The notes under the pieces: model-generated
The model's input: only the letters and a program-made list of their open reading frames with translations
The model's database searches: none
What the model was told of the DNA's origin: nothing
In this document: one piece after another, positions 5,427 through 41,626 of the stretch
Layout: each line of letters opens with the position of its first letter
Position numbering within the stretch: the stretch's first letter is position 1
DNA from: Nitrosomonas eutropha
GTDB taxonomy: Bacteria > Pseudomonadota > Gammaproteobacteria > Burkholderiales > Nitrosomonadaceae
Assembly: GCF_900116685.1 (NCBI RefSeq)
Contig: NZ_FPBL01000002.1
Location: 310,001 to 374,000, forward strand
DNA length: 64,000 nucleotides
Reading direction: 5' to 3'
Program-made: the position numbers and the translations under genes

Positions 5427-6440
5427 TTATTGAACTCTTTCCCGCTTGTACAGATCCTCAATGGTCATACCCATGCCAGCTTCACCACCAAACACTGTAC
5501 CGAGTGTCTTGCTCTGGAGATGTTTAATATTGAAATCGTAGAATTCCTTTTTTAGCGGGAAGTATCTCACTTCCTCAATCAATTGCTGTGCGTGTTGCAT
5601 ATAAAAGATAACAAATTCATTTATTTCCGGTTTATTTGCTGATTTTGCATTTACATAAATAAAGAGAGGACGCGATAATGGCTTATAACTTCCATTTTGT
5701 ACGGTAAGCATGGAAGGCAGAACACCGCCAGCACCATTATCAATCGCCACAGCTTTCAGTTTCTTCTGATTTTCAATGTAGTAGGCAAAGCCAAAGAAAC
5801 CTAATGCATTTAAATCGCTCGCCACACCCTGAACGAGTACATTGTCATCTTCCGAGGCAGTAAAATCTCCACGACTGGATTTTGCCTTACCGACCACGGC
5901 TTCGGTGAAATAGTCGAATGTACCTGAATCAGCTCCTGCACCGAAAAGTTTGATTTTGGCATTGGGCCAAGCCGGGTTGATTTGATTCCAGTTAAGTATC
6001 TTTTCTTGCGCTGCAGGCTCCCATATTTTTTTTAACTCAGCAATTGTTATGGATTTAATCCAGCTATTTCTGGGGTTGACCGCCACCGTCAATGCATCAA
6101 AAGCAATTGGCATCTCGATGTATTGCACGCCATTCTGCCGACATTGCTCCATTTCAGAAGACAGGATCGGGCGAGATGCATTCACAATATCGATTTCCCC
6201 TCTGCAGAATTTTTTGAATCCTCCACCGGTACCGGAGATACCGGCGGTAACCATAGTGGCCCCTTTTGTGGCAGTCTGAAAATCCTCAGAAACAGCTTCT
6301 GTAATCGGGAAAACAGTACTCGATCCATCTATCTTGACAAGCGATCTGGCTTGAATATATCCACTAATTCCACTCAGAAGGATAAGGGTCGTAATTAAAA
6401 ATCCGGCTCTACTACTGGATTTTAATAAGAACTGTTGCAT
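5427..6440 (-). CDS. PstS-family phosphate-binding periplasmic protein
   Basis: This is a substrate-binding protein of the PstS family, about 337 residues, with an N-terminal signal sequence (hydrophobic run around FLITTLILLSGISGYIQA). The mature part begins near LVKIDGSSTVFPITEAV, and SGTGGGFKKFC and GADSGTFDYF are phosphate-contact segments of this family. The start is ATG at 6440, preceded at good distance by AAGGTGA; an upstream in-frame TTG would include that ribosome site in the gene. No pstCAB transport genes are nearby, so it is an orphan binding protein. A PHO-box-like sequence lies 85-104 bases upstream. Confidence 0.85.
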   Translation of the reverse strand: MQQFLLKSSSRAGFLITTLILLSGISGYIQARSLVKIDGSSTVFPITEAVSEDFQTATKGATMVTAGISGTGGGFKKFCRGEIDIVNASRPILSSEMEQCRQNGVQYIEMPIAFDALTVAVNPRNSWIKSITIAELKKIWEPAAQEKILNWNQINPAWPNAKIKLFGAGADSGTFDYFTEAVVGKAKSSRGDFTASEDDNVLVQGVASDLNALGFFGFAYYIENQKKLKAVAIDNGAGGVLPSMLTVQNGSYKPLSRPLFIYVNAKSANKPEINEFVIFYMQHAQQLIEEVRYFPLKKEFYDFNIKHLQSKTLGTVFGGEAGMGMTIEDLYKRERVQ

Positions 6441-6524
6441 AATAGTCACCTTGATGTTCAAGAATTAAAGAAAAGATATCTGACCTGTATACCCTATGAC
6501 TCTAACTTCAGGTATTCACCAAAG

Positions 6525-6544
6525 ATAAACAAGATATATTACAG
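6525..6544 (-). promoter_or_regulatory. PHO-box-like sequence upstream of pstS
   Basis: On the minus strand this reads CTGTAATATATCTTGTTTAT. The first half matches the PHO-box half site CTGTCAT at six of seven positions and the central ATAT matches the usual spacer. The second half is poor. The location, in the only gap between glmM and the phosphate-binding gene, is what makes it worth listing. Confidence 0.35.
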
Positions 6545-6559
6545 TCTTGTGATGGTAGC

Positions 6560-7936
6560 TCAGTACCCAGCAGTTGAAGCAGTGGCCTGTTGCTGAATTA
6601 TTCCAGCAATTTTCTCAGCCCAGTATTCAATCTGTTGAGGGTCTTTTCCTTCCACCATCACCCTGATTAACGGTTCAGTTCCAGAAGCACGCAGTAAAAT
6701 ACGCCCATCATTTCCCAATGCCTGTTCTGCCTCGTTTTTGCATGTCTCTACTACCTGATCATTCTGAAAATTAAAATCTTTGGGAACTTTTATATTAATT
6801 AATCTTTGGGGAAAGAAAACAACATCACGCATTAAGTCAGCAAACATCAAACCCGTGTCACGTAATGCATATAAAACCTGGAGAGCTGAAACAATTCCGT
6901 CGCCTGTCGTATGTTTATCACGGCAGATAATATGGCCGGAATTCTCTGCGCCCAAGTACCAGTCATTCTGTTGCAGCAATTCAGACACATAACGATCTCC
7001 GACATTTGCCCGTGCAAATGGAATTCCGAGCCGCTCAAAAGCGTGCTCAACAGCCAGATTGGTCATGAGTGTCCCAACCACTCCACCTTGTAGTACACCG
7101 CGCTGCTGTCTATGTTTAGCAATAATGTAGGCCAGGCTGTCACCATCGTATACCACCCCTTCTCCGCTCACCATCAGCACTCGGTCGCCATCGCCATCTA
7201 CAGCAATACCAAAATCTGCACCATGTTGCAAAACTGCACCTTGTAGTGCCTTGATATGGGTTGCACCACATTCATGATTAATGTTGAACCCATCCGGATT
7301 TGCATGAATGGTTACAACATCAGCGCCCAGTTCATGCATCACATGCCCGGCGACCTGGTAATCCGCACCATTGGCACAATCAACCACGATTTTCCAGCCT
7401 CGTAAATCAAGCTGATTAGGAAAGGTACTTTTACAAAATTCGATATACCGGCCTTCTTCATCCTTAAGACGTTGTACTCTACCTAATTTGATAGAAGGCG
7501 CTGTTTCTATAGGAAAATCCAGCTCAGCTTCAATTTGAAGCTCCACACTATCCGGCAGTTTTGAGCCTTCAGAAGAGAAAAACTTAATGCCATTATCATA
7601 AAATGGATTGTGTGAAGCAGAAATAACTGCTCCGGCCTGAATGCGCAGCGCTCGCACAAGGTAGGCTACAGCAGGGGTTGGTAATGGCCCGGATAGCAGA
7701 ACATCTACCCCTGCCGCCGAGAAACCAGCCTCCAGCGCGGATTCCAGCATGTATCCGGATATGCGTGTATCTTTTCCAATCAGGATAGTGGGTCGTTTAT
7801 CTACCGCCAGTTTCCAATCGGACGCCAGCAACACTTTGCCAACAGCATACCCCAGACGCAGGAAAAAATCGGGCGTGATCGGGAATTCCCCCACCTTTCC
7901 ACGAATGCCATCTGTACCAAAATATTTTTTCTTCAT
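6560..7936 (-). CDS. glmM: Phosphoglucosamine mutase
   Basis: GlmM converts glucosamine-6-phosphate to glucosamine-1-phosphate for UDP-GlcNAc, peptidoglycan and lipopolysaccharide synthesis. The product has 458 residues. It starts MKKKYFGTDGIRGKVGE, carries the phosphoserine loop in VISASHNPFYDNGIKFF, the metal loop DGDGDRVLMV, and the C-terminal phosphate-binding RASGTEPLIRVMVEG. The start ATG follows AGGGAAG. The gene lies downstream of folP, the order also known in E. coli, and the two genes are separated by 166 bases. Confidence 0.97.
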   Translation of the reverse strand: MKKKYFGTDGIRGKVGEFPITPDFFLRLGYAVGKVLLASDWKLAVDKRPTILIGKDTRISGYMLESALEAGFSAAGVDVLLSGPLPTPAVAYLVRALRIQAGAVISASHNPFYDNGIKFFSSEGSKLPDSVELQIEAELDFPIETAPSIKLGRVQRLKDEEGRYIEFCKSTFPNQLDLRGWKIVVDCANGADYQVAGHVMHELGADVVTIHANPDGFNINHECGATHIKALQGAVLQHGADFGIAVDGDGDRVLMVSGEGVVYDGDSLAYIIAKHRQQRGVLQGGVVGTLMTNLAVEHAFERLGIPFARANVGDRYVSELLQQNDWYLGAENSGHIICRDKHTTGDGIVSALQVLYALRDTGLMFADLMRDVVFFPQRLINIKVPKDFNFQNDQVVETCKNEAEQALGNDGRILLRASGTEPLIRVMVEGKDPQQIEYWAEKIAGIIQQQATASTAGY

Positions 7937-8102
7937 ATCAGTGTCGCTTCCCTGTTGAATTCCAGATCAAAGTATTTAACAGAATTCACAATATCACAAT
8001 CAATACCCCACAGATGCTAGTGTCTGATAGATCAATAGTAATCAACTACCCAATTGTCATACTCGTATTATAGGGTCTGGGTACTGATTATCGTACAATC
8101 AA

Positions 8103-8957
8103 TTATTGGTCGGGTGACGGGTATATCAGAAAACCTGGATAAATACGATCCATTGCCGCAAACACTGAAAATGCATCACGGGTCGCCTTGACATCATGCA
8201 CCCGTACAATCCTGGCACCCTGTCCCACGGCCAAAAGAGCAGCCGCCACGCTGGCATACACACGATTATCAACTGTATTACCTGTAATCATTCCCAGCAT
8301 TGATTTACGTGAAATACCCGCCATAACAGGCAGATCCATAGCGGTAAAATGGTCCAGATGGTGTAACAAGGCAAGATTGTGCTCCAGTGTTTTACCAAAG
8401 CCAAAACCGGGATCAATAATGATTCGCTCACGTGCAATCCCGGCTGATATTGCCAATGCAACATGTTGTTCCAGAAAAGCCATGACCTCGGCAATCACAT
8501 CCGAATACTGCGGATCAAGCTGCATTGTCTCTGGTCGGCCTTGCATATGCATGAGACAAGCCATAACAGAGCTGTCTGCAACAACTTCCAGTGCACCAGG
8601 AGCTTGCAGCGCATTGGTATCATTAACAAGAACAACCCCGGCATTAATAGCGGCTTGCATCACTTCCGGTTTGGAAGTATCAACCGAAACCGGAATATTC
8701 ATATTCAACGCAAATTCTATGACGGGCATGATCCGTGACAGCTCTTCATCCGATTCAACAGATCGACTCCCGGGACGGGTAGATTCCCCTCCGATATCAA
8801 GGATATCTGCACCTTCCCGAACCAGGCGATTCACCTGTTCAATTGCTTTCCCGGTTGTATCAAAACAGCCGCCATCAGAAAAAGAGTCGGGCGTGACATT
8901 GATCACCCCCATGATCAGTGGGCAATTTTCTTGAAGAATCCTTTGCAGTTTATTCAC
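8103..8957 (-). CDS. folP: Dihydropteroate synthase
   Basis: FolP condenses p-aminobenzoate with dihydropterin pyrophosphate in folate synthesis and is the sulfonamide target. The product has 284 residues. Family motifs are MGVINVTPDSFSDGG near the N-terminus, DIGGESTRPGS for pterin binding, IDPGFGFGKT, and the C-terminal VRVHDVKATRDA. The start appears to be GTG at 8957, with no recognisable Shine-Dalgarno sequence, because a strong terminator hairpin sits just upstream. The gene lies between ftsH and glmM as in many proteobacteria. Confidence 0.96.
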   Translation of the reverse strand: MNKLQRILQENCPLIMGVINVTPDSFSDGGCFDTTGKAIEQVNRLVREGADILDIGGESTRPGSRSVESDEELSRIMPVIEFALNMNIPVSVDTSKPEVMQAAINAGVVLVNDTNALQAPGALEVVADSSVMACLMHMQGRPETMQLDPQYSDVIAEVMAFLEQHVALAISAGIARERIIIDPGFGFGKTLEHNLALLHHLDHFTAMDLPVMAGISRKSMLGMITGNTVDNRVYASVAAALLAVGQGARIVRVHDVKATRDAFSVFAAMDRIYPGFLIYPSPDQ

Positions 8958-8965
8958 TTGAGCAA

Positions 8966-9007
8966 GAAAAAATGGCCTGTACGTTTTATTTATTCGTACA
9001 GGCCATT
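8966..9007 (-). terminator. Rho-independent terminator after ftsH
   Basis: A perfect 13-bp inverted repeat (AATGGCCTGTACG at 8971-8983 and its complement at 8995-9007, 11-base loop) is followed on the minus strand by TTTTTTC. This is a textbook intrinsic terminator for ftsH. The folP start codon begins nine bases beyond the U-tract, so folP must depend on read-through or on a promoter within the hairpin region. Confidence 0.88.
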
Positions 9008-9027
9008 AATTAAGAACAATACAATTT

Positions 9028-10959
9028 TTAGGCTTCTACCTTTTGAGCAGGTGCTTCTTCTGTTGTTGCAGGCTCATCTGCGGGCTGTTTGACCTCACCG
9101 CCGCTGGTGCTGGTTGAACCTTTATCCTGCCGTAGAGAAGAAGAAGGTGATTGCGGTGGACGCGGTGGGCGACCTTCCATAATATCTTTGATCTGGTCGC
9201 TGTCTATTGTCTCCCACTCAAGCAATGCTTGAGTCATCGCCTCGATTTTATCCTTATTCTCCTCGATGATCTTGCGTGCAAGTGCATATTGTTCATCAAC
9301 GATCCGACGAATCTCGGCATCGACCATTTGCATAGTTGCCTCACTCAGATTTCTGTGCGTAGTAACTGAACGTCCAAGGAATACTTCTCCCTCATTTTCA
9401 CCATACACCATCGGTCCCAGCGTTTCGGACATACCCCATTGCGTCACCATCTTGCGAGTGGTATCTGTTGCCCGCTCAAAGTCATTGGAAGCACCGGTTG
9501 TCATCTGGTTCATGAACACTTCTTCTGCAATACGGCCGCCAAACATGACAGCAATCGTCTGCAAAATCTGATCGCGATCCATGCTGTAACGATCCTCGGC
9601 AGGAAGCTGCATAGTTACACCCAGTGCACGTCCGCGCGGGATAATTGAAACCTTGTGAACCGGATCGGTTTTAGGCAGCAAATAAGCCACTACCGCATGC
9701 CCCGATTCGTGATAAGCAGTATTGCGCCGCTCGTTTTCGGGCATAACAACGGAACGACGTTCTGCGCCCATCAGAATCTTGTCTTTCGCACGTTCAAAGT
9801 CATCCATATCAACCAGACGTTTGTTGGCTCGTGCGGCAAACAGGGCAGCCTCATTAACCAGGTTGGCCAGATCAGCTCCTGACATACCAGGCGTGCCCCT
9901 TGCCAAGATACTGGCTTTCACATCAGGGGATATAGGAACTTTGCGCATATGTACCAGCAAAATCTGTTCCCGACCGCGAATATCCGGCAGCGGGACAACA
10001 ACCTGCCTGTCAAACCGGCCTGGACGCAGCAAAGCAGGATCCAGTACGTCCGGGCGGTTAGTAGCAGCAATAACAATCACACCCATATTGCCTTCAAAGC
10101 CATCCATTTCAACCAGCAATTGGTTCAACGTCTGTTCGCGCTCATCATTTCCACCTCCCAGACCTGCGCCACGCTGACGGCCGACCGCATCAATCTCGTC
10201 AATGAAGATAATGCAGGGTGCATGTTTTTTCGCCTGCTCAAACATATCTCTCACTCTGGAGGCACCGACACCGACAAACATTTCGACGAAATCCGAACCG
10301 GAAATACTGAAAAATGGTACTTTTGCTTCACCGGCAATGGCGCGGGCAAGCAGCGTTTTACCTGTTCCCGGATTACCACACATCAGTACACCGCGAGGAA
10401 TACGACCACCCAGTTTCTGGAATCGGGAAGGGTCTCTCAGAAATTCGACCAACTCGGCAACCTCTTCTTTGGCCTCTTCACAACCGGCCACATCCGCAAA
10501 AGTCACGTTGTTACTCTTGTGATCAAGCATTCTGGCTTTACTTTTTCCGAATGAGAAAGCACCACCACTGCGACCACCCCCTTGCATCTGGCGCATGAAA
10601 AAGATCCAGACAGCAATCAGCAGCAACATCGGGAACCATGACACAAGTATGCTCATCAGCATGGAAGGCTCTTCTTCCGGCTTAGCTTCCACTGCCACTC
10701 CAGCCTTTAGAAGATCACTTACCAGCCATGGATCGGAAGGCGAATGGACAATAAACGAGCGGCCATCTGTTTTTGCACCTCTCAAGGTACGACCGTCGAT
10801 TACTACCTTGGCAATCCTGCCTTGGTGCATTTCACTGATGAATTGTGAATATTCCATGGGAGGCTGTGATGGCTGTCGGGTAGAGAACTGATTGAAGACT
10901 GTCATCAGTACTAATGCAATCACCAGCCAGATAGCCATGTTCTTAATCAAATTATTCAT
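9028..10959 (-). CDS. ftsH: ATP-dependent zinc metalloprotease FtsH
   Basis: FtsH is a membrane-anchored AAA+ protease that removes misfolded membrane proteins and regulators such as sigma-32 and LpxC. The product has 643 residues: two transmembrane segments (about 5-22 and 105-122) around a periplasmic domain, Walker [12 protein letters not shown], Walker [14 protein letters not shown], the SRH arginines, and the zinc site HESGH. The tail is rich in Pro, Ser and Glu. The start ATG follows GAGGAG. The gene follows rlmE, from which it is separated by 91 bases. Confidence 0.98.
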
Positions 10960-23738: not shown

Positions 23739-23915
23739 CCTGGAATGTTAACCCAAAGAAAGACCTGATTTGGGAGAGTATCCGCAACAATGTCTCCGCC
23801 CAACAGTGCGCTACGCGAACATAACTATTTTGCTTGTGCGCACCATGACTCAATCTGAGGCCTCACACAGCGGGATCTACAGAATGCACCTGAATTAGCT
23901 GTGGGAGATGGCACA
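23739..23915. other. Spacer between desaturase and IS481 remnant
   Basis: No gene was recognised. The sequence contains several stop codons in all frames. The recognisable transposase homology begins at about 23916. Confidence 0.4.
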
Positions 23916-24303
23916 CTGGAGTTTGCTTACGCCGAGCTGCTACCCAGGTACGGCAAGATGGAAGCGGCGCAGTTCCTGCGCACTCTCATCACTGCCGTAC
24001 CCTACAAAATCCACACCATCCTGACAGACAATGGTATCCAATTCACCAACCGCAAAAAAGACAGGCGCGCCTTCTTGCATATCTTTGATCGCGTCTGTCT
24101 GGACAACGGTACGGAATATCGCTTGACCAAACCAAATCATCCCTGGACCAACGGCCAGGTCGAGTGTATGAACCGTACCCTCAAGGAAGCAACCGTCAAA
24201 CGATACTATTACGAAAATCATCAGCAGTTGCGAGAGCATCTCTACAACTTCCTGAATGCCTACAACTTCGCCAAGCGACTCAAAACCCTGCGAGGACTCA
24301 CAC
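23916..24303 (+). pseudogene. IS481-family transposase, decayed internal fragment
   Basis: From about 23916 the frame reads FAYAELLPRYGKMEAAQFL, then TILTDNGIQFTNRK with the second DDE aspartate, NHPWTNGQVECMNRTLKEA with the catalytic Glu, and ends at LKTLRGLT. This is the rve catalytic core of an IS481-type transposase. The N-terminal helix-turn-helix and the first catalytic Asp are missing, and the C-terminus after RGLT is replaced by unrelated sequence that runs in frame to a stop at 24422. Cysteine replaces the usual Arg in the VECMN motif. A second, shorter relic of the same element is at 41465-41626. Confidence 0.8.
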
Positions 24304-24329
24304 TGACGTGGTTTAATGAAACCACGTCA
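24304..24329. repeat. Perfect 11-bp inverted repeat at the end of the IS481 remnant
   Basis: TGACGTGGTTT at 24304-24314 and its exact complement at 24319-24329 flank a four-base loop (AATG). It begins immediately where transposase homology stops. It could be a transcription terminator stem without a U-tract or a leftover of the rearrangement. Confidence 0.6.
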
Positions 24330-24447
24330 TTCATCTGGCCTTCATGGCACCGATACTCAGAAGATCATAAACAGACTCTGACAGGATATGATTGGAGCAC
24401 GAACTCTTTGAATCCGATTTAAAAACCAGTTACAAAGGAGCAGCATC

Positions 24448-36588: not shown

Positions 36589-37206
36589 GGTCTGTTACCG
36601 TTTCAGGCTATTTTCTTGCTTTATAAGAGAAAAATCGTATCGTTGTAGCCCCCACACAACACCAATACGAGTCTGCAATGGCTCGATTATACTCAGCGAC
36701 GAGCACTGGCCGAAACTTTCTGCTGCATAAATTAACCATCCGCAACACCCGCGATTTGCGAATGACTGTCGAAGGTACACTATAAGCGGTTCAACGCCTG
36801 GTCTGCTTCAGACAAGTGGTTTAAGGTCTTCAAGATACTTATCGTGGAGTCCGACATCCCAAAACAGCGTCGATTGCGAGCCCGGCCGGTTTCAAATGTG
36901 AGCTGCTACAACTACCAGGCATCCTGTCCAGAGAAATTGAAGATCCATCCGGATAAAAAATCCGGGATCACCAATGATTGGGCAACAGGAACCCCAGATA
37001 CCCGCTTGAACTCTTCCTTTGTGTCATTACTGCTGGCCTGCAAGATATTTCCAATGTACCCACAAGGTATTTGAGACTCGTGCCAAGATTCTACAGTAGA
37101 TCGGAATACCGGCTTGTATCGGTATCGGCCCGACCAGAACCTTGATTATAAACTTGCTAACCCTATTACCAAGGACACAGACAGAAAAACCCGGATTGTA
37201 TCGCAT
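36589..37206. other. Gene-poor region after fliK with an IS5-like relic
   Basis: This 618-base gap separates the flagellar operon from the convergent PepSY gene. It holds a decayed IS5-family transposase fragment at about 36686-36860. The rest shows only short open frames without family character, and no terminator hairpin for fliK was recognised. Confidence 0.5.
36686..36860 (+). pseudogene. IS5-family transposase, N-terminal relic in two frames
   Basis: One plus-strand frame reads ILSDEHWPKLSAA before a stop, which matches the conserved N-terminus of IS5-type transposases (LSDEQW pattern). About 60 bases later another frame reads YKRFNAWSASDKWFKVFKIL, which matches the next conserved block (YKRFxxWxxxxxWxxIF pattern). 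The frameshift and the missing sequence between them show decay. The catalytic domain is absent. Confidence 0.6.
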
Positions 37207-38427
37207 TCACTTGATCCCTCTGCTCTTGCGTTTCCTGGACCAGATAATGACACCTGTTATGGCCAGTATTGCGGTCAACATTCCCATGATGCATATCAGC
37301 ACACGTCCATACATACCTAATATCTGTCCACTGTGTATTGGGAATTGCCAGGCAAGAAAACGATCCGCCCTGGTACCACTGTCATACCCTCGCTGTCCTG
37401 TTAATGTACCGTTGTCACCGTTAATGAACACTTGCTCCGCTTCGATCGCAAACGCTTTGCTTCCTCTTCCCTTATGATCGAAGGCCACGCGATATACATT
37501 TAGGTCAGGCATGTACCTTACAAACGACAACTCCAGATCATCATTTCCGGCTGGCAACCGCTGACGCGCCACCAACACCGCATCTGAAAAACCCAATACT
37601 GGATCAGCACCTGATTGCAATGTCTTGGGCAGTGTCTTGGGCAGTGTTTTGCGTGGATCAGGTGTCAAGTCCCCGAACAATCCCACGATCGGCCTGAATA
37701 CCTCTGCATTCAGGTTGAAATATGCACCGCTCATTGCCACCATGAAGAGCACAGGCCAGAACCATAGACCGCTTGCCCGGTGCAGATCAAAATTGAATCT
37801 GACCCAGCCAGCCTGTCTCTTGATACCCCATGATGGTTTCCAGCGCGACAACCAATTTCTGCAAGAACTGTTCTTTTCCCTTGATCTCAATGGCGGAGGG
37901 AGTGTCAGATAAAAACCGACGAGACAATCCACCATCCAGATCAGGGCAATGCCACCTAGCAACCAGGTACCCCAACGCCCTGGCAGGTACAGATTGGTAT
38001 GCAACCTGTACACCATGGGAATGACATGTGCCCGATCCATGACAAACGTGCCGCGTACTCTCGCCCCCAGCGCCTCACCACTAAACGGGTTCAGAAATAG
38101 CTCCCACATCGTGCCCCGTTCTGTTTTTAGGTCAACTCTGATACTTTCCCCATGATTACGTTTGATCCGTATCGTGATAATCTCAGCATCAGGATCAAAC
38201 TGTTGCGCATGTCTGGCTATTGCATCCAACGACAATACCGGCGCAGTCTGCTCGGACACGCGAAACAATTCCGGATTTAACCAGGCGTCCAGTTCGTGCT
38301 CAAAAGCAATCACACTGCCAGTCAATCCCAACATAACCAGAAAAGCGGCAATGACCAACCCGATATAACGATGTAGCCTTACCCAAAATGATCTGGATAA
38401 CACACCAGAACGAATAACTGATGTCAT
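37207..38427 (-). CDS. PepSY-associated transmembrane protein (siderophore/iron uptake type)
   Basis: This 406-residue inner membrane protein has four to five hydrophobic segments (near residues 20-40, 150-175, 205-225 and 375-400) and PepSY-like extracytoplasmic parts. Such proteins often sit beside TonB receptors and are thought to reduce ferric siderophores or assist their release. It begins five bases after the receptor stop, on the same strand, so they form an operon. A 12-base tandem repeat encodes LPKTLPKTLQ near residue 265. Confidence 0.85.
   Translation of the reverse strand: MTSVIRSGVLSRSFWVRLHRYIGLVIAAFLVMLGLTGSVIAFEHELDAWLNPELFRVSEQTAPVLSLDAIARHAQQFDPDAEIITIRIKRNHGESIRVDLKTERGTMWELFLNPFSGEALGARVRGTFVMDRAHVIPMVYRLHTNLYLPGRWGTWLLGGIALIWMVDCLVGFYLTLPPPLRSREKNSSCRNWLSRWKPSWGIKRQAGWVRFNFDLHRASGLWFWPVLFMVAMSGAYFNLNAEVFRPIVGLFGDLTPDPRKTLPKTLPKTLQSGADPVLGFSDAVLVARQRLPAGNDDLELSFVRYMPDLNVYRVAFDHKGRGSKAFAIEAEQVFINGDNGTLTGQRGYDSGTRADRFLAWQFPIHSGQILGMYGRVLICIMGMLTAILAITGVIIWSRKRKSRGIK
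37621..37648 (-). repeat. 12-bp tandem repeat inside the PepSY gene
   Basis: TGTCTTGGGCAG occurs twice in direct succession, followed by a partial third copy. Each unit is four codons, so a gain or loss keeps the frame. It encodes the repeated Leu-Pro-Lys-Thr. Confidence 0.8.
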
Positions 38428-38432
38428 TGCAA

Positions 38433-40595
38433 TCAGAAATCCACCGTTGCCGATACCATCAACGTGCGCCTATCCCCTAATGTCAGGCCGCTGGCTGCTG
38501 CAGATGACCAGTACCGTTTGTCGAACACATTCAGAATATTGGCACGGATCGTCACAGGAGTTGCGATGTGTTGTACTGCATATCTCGCACCCAGATCAAA
38601 CCGTACCCATGAAGGAATTTTCTGGGTATTTGCGGCATCCAGATACTGTGCACCCGTGTAGATAGAACGCGCGGTTAACGTCAGGCCGGGAATAATCCTA
38701 ACGTCCCATTCACCCCCCAGATTAGCAGTAACATCAGGTACGCCCGGTGCTGTCTTCCCATCATTGATGGCTCCTGCTGTCTTGGTCAGTTCACCATTGA
38801 GGTACATTACTCCTCCTTGGAAACGAACACCAGAAAATGGCTCGCCAAACACATTCATTTCCACCCCCTGATTCTGTTGCTTCCCGTCCATAGCAAAAAT
38901 AAGCGTTGCAGGATCAGTGAAGCCAATAGGTTGCCTGATTCTGAAGAAGCTTGCCGTTGTCATCAGCTTGCCAAAATCCACTTTGATACCTGCCTCTACT
39001 TGCCTGGTCTTGGATGGCGGAAAAATATCGTTGATATTAATTGCCCCGGCAGTAGGCGTTGATCCTTGGGTAAGCGCCTCGATGTAGTTGGCATACAGCG
39101 AGACTTTCTTCCACGGCTTGATCAACAACCCCACCGCGGGAGTTACCGCTGCTTTGTCATAATGTGTTGTCCTGGAACCGGTAACCGGACTATAACCATT
39201 CACCTGCACCCGTTGCACGCGCGCACCTAAAGTCAATTGTGCTTGCTCGTCCAATATGGACAAGGTATCGCTCAGTGCAATGCTTGATAGATGTGTTTTA
39301 TTCACAATCGGTAAATGATGAGACAAGCCGCCTTGCATTGGCTCAGGGTACTCAACCGGGTTGAAAACATTGGATCGGATATTAGCAAAGTTCTGTCGCG
39401 CATTTCCATATTCCAAACGGAAATCACTCACACCCAGATTGGTCGCATGTGCAATGGGACCAGTCTCAAATTTAGCATGCAACCCAGCCTCTGCTGACAG
39501 CGCATTTTCCTTGTACAAATACCGAAAGGGTTGCGTAATGAAATCTCCATTGGCATTTCTCATGCTCACTGCTGCCCGCATAAAGTCGTAATCTCCTCGC
39601 CGCGCACCAATGGCTGCATAAGCATTGAGGATTGGGGATATATCGTATTCTGCTCTGAACACACCATAAATATCTTGGCCATTTGCGTCAGTCCATGAGG
39701 GTGTCATGCCAGAATCGATGTGCCTAGCTGAGGGAGGTCTTACTCCGCGGATCACTCCCACTCGTTCCAATGGAGCTTCCACGCGGCGCTCCTGGTAGGC
39801 AACATCTGCAAACAAACGTAGCGCTTCTCCACGAAAATCCAGCGCGAGGTTATGAACGTTACGCCGTATGGATTGACGCCTGAATGGAGTATTGCCATCC
39901 TGATAAACACTGTTGAGCCGGACACCAAAACTGTTATCCTTGCCAAAACGGCGCCCGATGTCCGCATGGCCGCCAAATTGACTATTGGACAGATAAGAGC
40001 CGGTCAGCTGGATTACTGGCCTGTCATCTGACCGTTTAGGCACGATGTTGATCGTTCCGCCAACACCACCGCTTGGCGCCATACCATTCAGTAATGCATT
40101 GGGTCCTTTGATGATTTCCACTCGTTCTATCGCTTCTACCGGTACGGAATAAGTCGGAACAATGCCATATAACCCACCAAATGCTATTTCGCTATTAAGC
40201 ACCGTAAACCCACGGATACTGAATTGCTCGAAACGCCCGGATGGAGGATTGATGGATCTGACGGAAGCATCATTCAAAGTTACATCTGTCACTGTACGTG
40301 CTTGCTGATCCTTGATTGTTTGGGCCGTATAATTTGTCACGCTGAAGGGTGTATCCATCAGATCCTTATTACCCAGCAACCCGACGCGCCCACCTCTGGC
40401 CTGTTGTCCTCCCGCATATGCATCAGGCAATTCATCCGGCCCCTTCTCGGTACTTCCCTGCACCTTGATCACGGGTAACTTTGTTACTGTTCCTGCCTTT
40501 CCACTCTCATCCTCTGTAGCCAATCCCTCCATCGGCATAGCGCCCAGCAAGGCGCTGACCATGATGCTGACTCTATATATTTTATTGTTCAACAT
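38433..40595 (-). CDS. TonB-dependent siderophore receptor
   Basis: This 720-residue outer membrane receptor imports a ferric siderophore using TonB energy. It has a signal peptide (VSALLGAMPMEGLA region), a TonB-box-like start of the plug, the plug domain (DTPFSVTNYTAQTIKDQQA, FSIRGF, and VERVEIIKGPNALLNGMAPSG without breaks) and a 22-strand type barrel ending in LMVSATVDF with the final Phe needed for assembly. It is followed by the PepSY gene. Directly upstream are remnants of siderophore biosynthesis genes, so the natural ligand may once have been made locally. Confidence 0.94.
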   Translation of the reverse strand: MLNNKIYRVSIMVSALLGAMPMEGLATEDESGKAGTVTKLPVIKVQGSTEKGPDELPDAYAGGQQARGGRVGLLGNKDLMDTPFSVTNYTAQTIKDQQARTVTDVTLNDASVRSINPPSGRFEQFSIRGFTVLNSEIAFGGLYGIVPTYSVPVEAIERVEIIKGPNALLNGMAPSGGVGGTINIVPKRSDDRPVIQLTGSYLSNSQFGGHADIGRRFGKDNSFGVRLNSVYQDGNTPFRRQSIRRNVHNLALDFRGEALRLFADVAYQERRVEAPLERVGVIRGVRPPSARHIDSGMTPSWTDANGQDIYGVFRAEYDISPILNAYAAIGARRGDYDFMRAAVSMRNANGDFITQPFRYLYKENALSAEAGLHAKFETGPIAHATNLGVSDFRLEYGNARQNFANIRSNVFNPVEYPEPMQGGLSHHLPIVNKTHLSSIALSDTLSILDEQAQLTLGARVQRVQVNGYSPVTGSRTTHYDKAAVTPAVGLLIKPWKKVSLYANYIEALTQGSTPTAGAININDIFPPSKTRQVEAGIKVDFGKLMTTASFFRIRQPIGFTDPATLIFAMDGKQQNQGVEMNVFGEPFSGVRFQGGVMYLNGELTKTAGAINDGKTAPGVPDVTANLGGEWDVRIIPGLTLTARSIYTGAQYLDAANTQKIPSWVRFDLGARYAVQHIATPVTIRANILNVFDKRYWSSAAASGLTLGDRRTLMVSATVDF

Positions 40596-40652
40596 GATTC
40601 TCTGACTTTGATAATGCTGCGAAATAATGAAATAAACGGGGAATACGCTAGT

Positions 40653-40871
40653 CTAGGCTGGCAAATAGATATGCTCAGGATGAGCATGGCGCAGAAAATC
40701 GTGATGGGATATATGCCAGGCATATGCCCCTGCATGTGAAAACAGAACAATATCCCCCACCCGAACTTCACTCACCATTTCATCGAAAGCTAACAAATCC
40801 TTAGGGGTACACAATTGCCCCACGATATTGACTTTCTTATGCTTGAGACCGGGTCTGGAATATGATTTTCT
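40653..40871 (-). pseudogene. Type III PLP-dependent decarboxylase, C-terminal remnant
   Basis: A minus-strand frame without a start codon reads VNIVGQLCTPKDLLAFDEM, then VRVGDIVLFSHAGAYAWHIS and ends in HIYLPA before a TAG stop. This is the C-terminal signature of the ornithine/diaminopimelate decarboxylase-like fold-III PLP family (GxLCTPxD, then GDxV...GAY). The family includes siderophore enzymes such as SbnH and PvsE. The N-terminal PLP barrel is missing, and a stop lies just upstream at about 40872. Confidence 0.72.
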
Positions 40872-40872
40872 T

Positions 40873-41172
40873 CAGATTTGAATTGAATCTTAATGCTTCC
40901 GCATCTTTCACAACTGTATTGTTCAACTCAGAGATAAAAAAACTGTATTTATTCTCTTCCCCATCAATTTCTGATGCGATCTCTCCAAGGAATAAGGCAA
41001 CCGATAGTGCCTCACCTCTCGATTGTTCCGATATTCTGGTGACTGGATCTTGTAACCTTATTCTGCCGTAACTGACAGATTTGCCATTGGTACCCACCGC
41101 TTTAATGGTGTACTCGGAACAACCTGTTGAAAGCGATCTCTCCGAATACTCAAGAATATTCTCGAACAGCAT
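40873..41172 (-). pseudogene. IucA/IucC-like siderophore synthetase, N-terminal remnant
   Basis: The frame begins MLFENILEYSERSLSTGC at 41172 and continues with YGRIRLQDPVTRISE, then ALSVALFLGEIASEI and ISELNNTVVKDAEALRFN, the N-terminal pattern of NRPS-independent siderophore synthetases. In-frame codons upstream of the ATG (QLLES) also fit the family, but a stop lies just before them. The homology ends at about 40876 and is joined to the decarboxylase tail by a deletion. Full-length enzymes are near 600 residues. The family call is by pattern. Confidence 0.6.
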
Positions 41173-41285
41173 GGATTCAAGAAGCTGTCATAAAGTCCGG
41201 CGACGTGCGGCAAGATAATTGGAGTTTGGTGCCTGAAGCATGTCCATCCTTAATTAAATCCTTTTTAATTTTTTATGACTCATAT

Positions 41286-41304
41286 AATAATGATTATGCA
41301 AATA
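41286..41304. promoter_or_regulatory. Fur-box-like sequence upstream of the siderophore relic
   Basis: AATAATGATTATGCAAATA matches the 19-base Fur consensus at 12 positions, mostly in the left half. It lies about 115 bases upstream of the synthetase relic, where an iron-regulated promoter would be expected. AT-rich background makes chance matches likely. Confidence 0.3.
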
Positions 41305-41464
41305 ATAACCACTTCCATTTACAAACTCAAGCGCCAACTTATTACTGACGTGACACGCTGACAGTAAAAATCACTACCACCTACCCTGTTCCCTAGAGAG
41401 AGTTGTTTAGTCCCGCTTTGTGAGCGTGTACTGTATGATTCGCCACCAACACAGGAGGAGTTAG

Positions 41465-41626
41465 AGGACAGGTATGCCTGTTTGCATATCTTCGACCGCG
41501 TCTACCTGGAAAATGATATGGAACATCGCTCAACCAGACCGAATCATCTCTGGATCAGTGGCCAGGTCGAGTGCATGAACTGCGCCCTAAAGGAAGCAAC
41601 CGTCAAACGCTATCATTTGTGGTAAA
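41465..41626 (+). pseudogene. Second IS481-family transposase relic
   Basis: The frame reads CLHIFDRVYLENDMEHRST, then GQVECMNCALKEATVKRYH, and stops. This aligns with the catalytic core of the copy at 23916-24303 (LHIFDRVCLDNGTEYRLT and GQVECMNRTLKEATVKRYY). It is shorter and more diverged than the first copy but shares the unusual VECMN cysteine. Catalytic Glu is retained but the rest of the element is gone. Confidence 0.8.

Follow-up and report, generated by a model that had tools for sequence, protein, structure and literature searches.

A truncated siderophore biosynthesis operon beside intact uptake genes in a Nitrosomonas genome suggests loss of production with uptake probably retained

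The stretch of DNA analysed here (64,000 nt, referred to as the window) lies on one contig of the draft genome (2.34 Mb, 31 contigs) of a Nitrosomonas closely related to N. eutropha. It carries an island with two uptake genes and the remains of two biosynthesis genes, flanked by fliK on one side and by a phosphoribosyltransferase gene adjoining nadC on the other. The features of the island are as follows, in coordinates of the window:

37207 to 38427, minus strand: PepSY_TM inner-membrane protein, intact, 406 aa, presumed ferrisiderophore reductase (PF03929, E 2.5e-62); collinear with N. eutropha Nm57
38433 to 40595, minus strand: TonB-dependent siderophore receptor, intact, 720 aa, with a signal-peptide-like N-terminus, plug, barrel and terminal Phe
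40653 to 40872, minus strand: remnant of a fold-III PLP decarboxylase (SbnH-like), codons 329-400 of 400 plus the stop, that is, the last 72 codons
40869 to 40873, minus strand: deletion junction GAAGA, a 5-bp microhomology common to both ends of the missing block
40869 to 41247, minus strand: remnant of NIS synthetase A (IucA/IucC-type, SbnF-like), codons 1-140 of 603, including the original start codon
41188 to 41190, minus strand: nonsense codon TGA in the original frame of the synthetase remnant; Nm57 has CGA (Arg)
41248 to 41400, minus strand: upstream region conserved with Nm57, presumed promoter (aligned to about 220-363 of the Nm57 locus)
41430 to 41625, plus strand: island boundary, containing an IS481-type transposase relic (41467-41612); the core genome resumes at 41612

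The synthetase and decarboxylase fragments are both real, far beyond chance. The minus-strand frame 40837-41172 (111 aa) aligns to residues 18-128 of the 577 in the NCBIfam SbnF model NF033586, with an E value of 2.6e-10. Against the N-terminal region of an intact NIS synthetase from Nm57, the frame shows 81% identity across 101 aa. These matches bear out the proposal of an earlier note on this DNA that the N-terminal piece of an IucA/IucC-like synthetase lies here. When 84,980 species genomes were scanned with the synthetase fragment, the one confirmed relative was again Nm57 (81% identical). The start at 41172 assumed in the earlier note has to be corrected: the original ATG is at 41247, and the in-frame TGA at 41190-41188 masks it. 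Translated from that ATG, the remnant gives MDMLQAPNSNYLAARRRTL before it runs into this TGA. Compared with Nm57, it also lacks 12 nt at one point and 30 nt at another, both in frame; a short direct repeat flanks the longer of these deletions.

The second piece had been taken for the C-terminal tail of a fold-III PLP decarboxylase, and this was confirmed. The minus-strand frame 40653-40823 (56 aa) matches TIGR03099 (model 346-396 of 398, E 1.9e-8) and, slightly under the curated cut-off, PF00278, the C-terminal domain of Orn_DAP_Arg_deC (E 6e-4). The longer stretch, which begins at the junction at 40872, shares 88% identity with the C-terminal end of the Nm57 PLP decarboxylase. Its frame is open and lacks both a start codon and the PLP-binding domain. 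Of the two families expected in an HMM search of 40653-41172, the decarboxylase was thus found through its C-terminal domain; PF04183 (IucA_IucC) gave no match in the fragments, because the kept residues 1-140 precede this domain, which starts at residue 151 of the intact protein. For the same reason, we rejected the PF04183 blank as evidence against a relic.

An undeleted version of the locus exists in Nm57 (L017, NZ_QICQ01000011.1). There, six genes run in one direction: a NIS synthetase (A, 603 aa), an MFS exporter (396 aa), a second NIS synthetase (B, 604 aa) overlapping a PLP decarboxylase (400 aa), a TonB receptor and a PepSY protein. The window is collinear with this operon on both sides of a single deletion, with receptor and PepSY gene downstream. 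It aligns to L017 190-784 (80% over 604 nt) and 6194-9978 (84% over 3,802 nt), and the two stretches meet at 40869-40873. Relative to Nm57, one block of 5,411 bp (L017 784-6194) is missing. The earlier claim of two gene pieces joined by a deletion therefore holds: both match different genes of one operon, with order and orientation kept around the missing block. The catalytic parts (IucA_IucC, FhuF-like and PLP-binding domains) are gone, and the frame is broken by the TGA and by one additional nucleotide just after the junction, which puts the synthetase and decarboxylase parts out of frame. Beside its intact operon, Nm57 harbors a second metallophore-like cluster (L058 11517-19934) with genes for a TonB receptor, a SAM methyltransferase, a 647-aa protein whose C-terminal half is PLP (cysteine-synthase-like) and whose N-terminal half is unassigned, an asparagine synthetase and an MFS exporter.

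The relic still carries a coding signature. It differs from Nm57 at 14, 8 and 35 sites in codon positions 1, 2 and 3, respectively (chi-square P 2.5e-5). Most of the divergence therefore arose while the genes still worked, and the loss is young. The dN/dS values of the remnant parts against Nm57 were 0.21 and 0.12 (NG86), and a test for an excess of nonsynonymous changes in the relic, compared with the receptor, found none (Fisher P 0.53). At the old promoter we searched for a strong Fur box; the best consensus match (13/19) lies in an A+T-rich stretch and was equalled by 26 of 500 shuffles, so that the claim of a Fur box, at a match level reached by 5% of shuffles, was dropped.

Both uptake genes are full length, with no internal stop or frameshift, as had been noted before. 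The receptor matches TIGR01783 above its cut-off (E 8e-106) as well as PF07715 and PF00593, and it is 85% identical at the amino acid level to the receptor of the Nm57 operon. Against Nm57, dN/dS (NG86) is 0.11 for the receptor and 0.19 for the PepSY gene; core genes gave 0.06-0.12. A large share of the low receptor value accumulated before the deletion. The nearest solved relatives of the receptor are FemA and BauA. This likeness does not name the ligand; membership in the intact operon would be the better pointer and points, by association, to the siderophore of that operon.

The genome shows no sign of a second NIS or NRPS route to a siderophore. Searches of the whole genome for IucA_IucC (PF04183), for a homologue of synthetase B and for an NRPS condensation domain were all negative, and the decarboxylase query picked up nothing but the relic itself and three paralogues at 26-31% identity. 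The same family searches gave matches in control or relative genomes, and the blanks are therefore meaningful. Thus, neither of the findings named in the earlier note as speaking against its view turned up: the matches to both enzymes are genuine, and we found no functional copy of the pathway elsewhere in the genome. Loss of production, as the note had proposed, is strongly supported. NIS synthetases are patchy in the genus; among the relatives searched, six other genus genomes have them. The genome encodes 11 TonB-receptor plugs. Besides that of the window receptor, three such plug domains lie within 9 kb of one another just right of the window (contig C19, 377799-386004).

What the intact operon makes can be narrowed down from its enzymes. 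In Pfam, NCBIfam and PDB comparisons, synthetase A of Nm57 is nearest to SbnF and AsbB, synthetase B to AcsD, which we take to be an SbnE-type synthetase, and the decarboxylase to 6knh, presumably SbnH. The first synthetase resembles staphyloferrin B enzymes more than vibrioferrin ones, and the parts of the operon would be of the SbnF, SbnE/AcsD and SbnH types. The best match of synthetase A is to the SbnF model (E 1e-140); at 470 bits it does not reach the curated cut-off of 900. The operon also differs from the staphyloferrin B (sbn) system in having two NIS synthetases, not three, and no sbnA, sbnB or sbnG. Vibrioferrin-type clusters (pvsABCDE order), such as that on pHG1 of Cupriavidus necator, share with it the order NIS synthetase, MFS exporter, NIS synthetase and PLP decarboxylase. 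In the pHG1 cluster synthetase B is 47% and the decarboxylase 57% identical, but the receptor only 26%. However, vibrioferrin-type clusters have an ATP-grasp gene in front and a first synthetase of another type. A homologue of the ATP-grasp ligase PvsA was absent from the window genome and was represented in Nm57 by a weak, isolated match (27%). Vibrioferrin as the product, which the gene order had suggested, was rejected on these two grounds, the missing PvsA and the type of synthetase A.

The gene order and direction of the Nm57 operon are the same as in the window on both sides of the deletion, but Nm57 keeps all six genes and has them at another genomic place. The core genes flanking the window locus are about 92% identical to Nm57 at the DNA level, and collinearity of the core restarts at 41612. 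In Nm57 the fliK/phosphoribosyltransferase site is occupied by an MBOAT acyltransferase gene with its neighbours, and the siderophore operon is on another contig. The locus has therefore moved. The cargo of this gap (window 36590-41612, Nm57 L057 8771-11941) differs among Nitrosomonas: the uptake island in the window genome, MBOAT acyltransferase genes in Nm57 and almost nothing in a third genome (G012). The gap is thus a small insertion hot spot. The transposase relic at the island boundary is 81% identical over 146 nt to window 24060-24205, within the transposase fragment 23901-24422; the two fragments belong to one family, which we take to be IS481. A different, multicopy element of the IS481 type borders the Nm57 operon upstream, at the contig end.

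Taken together, these data make it very probable that production was lost by a 5.4-kb deletion and that import of the ferric siderophore is kept via the intact genes. The ancestor would have had a six-gene operon encoding synthetase A (SbnF type), an MFS exporter, synthetase B (AcsD/SbnE type), a decarboxylase (SbnH type), the receptor and the PepSY reductase. Judging from the enzyme types, this operon probably served to make, export and take back up a citrate-based carboxylate siderophore. Comparison with Nm57 shows what a single event, probably slippage or end joining at the 5-bp repeat GAAGA, then took out: the exporter and synthetase B entirely, and synthetase A and the decarboxylase almost entirely. 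The distance of the intact receptor and PepSY genes from the former start of the operon has shrunk from 6.1 kb to about 650 bp, so that they are probably still expressed and probably still take up the same ferric siderophore from a producing neighbour. At the level of the sequence, production is lost; retained uptake and a 'consumer' behaviour are likely.

Vertical descent with a deletion in place is not proved, because the island sits at a different site than in Nm57 and the receptor dS (0.72) exceeds that of the flanking core genes (0.22-0.30); the island may have arrived separately. It is possible, though we would not favor it, that the island was acquired horizontally in an already broken state, or that related islands were acquired independently, in which case the strain was never a producer and there was no change from producer to consumer. 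Besides the differing insertion sites and the high receptor dS, the IS481-type sequence that borders the locus upstream in both genomes and the restriction of the receptor ortholog to two of 85 genus genomes (the window genome and Nm57) would fit such an origin. However, the dS of the synthetase remnant (0.23) is similar to that of core genes, and the kept coding signature with few lesions indicates that the break is young relative to the split from Nm57.

The youth of the remnant also bears on the idea that receptor and PepSY gene are neutral leftovers that are decaying as well, since it makes their intactness only modest evidence for working uptake. We regard this idea as improbable nevertheless. 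The uptake genes have no disabling lesion in 3,384 nt, compared with at least 1-2 in the 595 nt of the remnant (P 0.003 to 1e-5 for finding none if lesions fell at that density), which we consider moderate evidence that they remain under selection; their dN/dS is low, and a receptor can function without an own siderophore, in a genome that keeps 11 TonB plugs. A misjoin in the draft assembly could in principle have removed the middle of the operon, given the 31 contigs. However, the junction is internal to a large contig, the missing genes are found nowhere else in the genome, and the nonsense codon, the +1 frameshift and the small deletions represent independent damage in the remnant, so that an artefact seems very unlikely. 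A new functional gene made from the fused short ORFs can practically be dismissed: an ATG does open a frame of 111 aa, but that frame includes no catalytic domain, closes with a tail that is out of frame and is preceded by a nonsense codon.

The preferred reading, a deletion of biosynthesis beside kept uptake, follows a mechanism that is already known. A large deletion affects the staphyloferrin A cluster (sfa-hts) of Staphylococcus lugdunensis, with the transporter kept and siderophore use shown experimentally; this species also lacks sbn yet keeps sirABC (PMC3996567). The sfa-hts case is like the window locus in its biosynthesis deletion beside kept uptake genes; it differs in its Gram-positive ABC uptake, its staphyloferrin A cluster and its proven function. 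Closer in lifestyle is Nitrosococcus oceani, likewise an ammonia oxidiser with receptor and PepSY gene and without biosynthesis: strains other than AFC132 keep a TonB receptor and a PepSY gene, the biosynthesis genes are absent, and the authors propose cheating (PMC7285500). This species is a gammaproteobacterium with an NRPS-type pathway, and the passages considered here describe no relic. Receptors without biosynthesis are widespread in Vibrionaceae (PMC5812596), and N. europaea makes no siderophore and devotes about 4% of its genes to iron acquisition (PMC3050691).

The locus is therefore an instructive example and not a new principle. What is new is an unusually clean case, in which the intact twin is known and the relic is still readable. 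Nm57 and the window strain might even form a natural producer/consumer pair within one nitrifier genus, with the deletion favoured since the receptor, formerly 6.1 kb behind the operon start, came to lie about 650 bp from it, raising uptake and ending production at once, but this remains a doubtful suggestion. With the loss caught half-decayed and the intact operon present in the nearest relative, it becomes possible to test directly, with two defined gene sets, whether a nitrifier depends on siderophore made by a neighbour.
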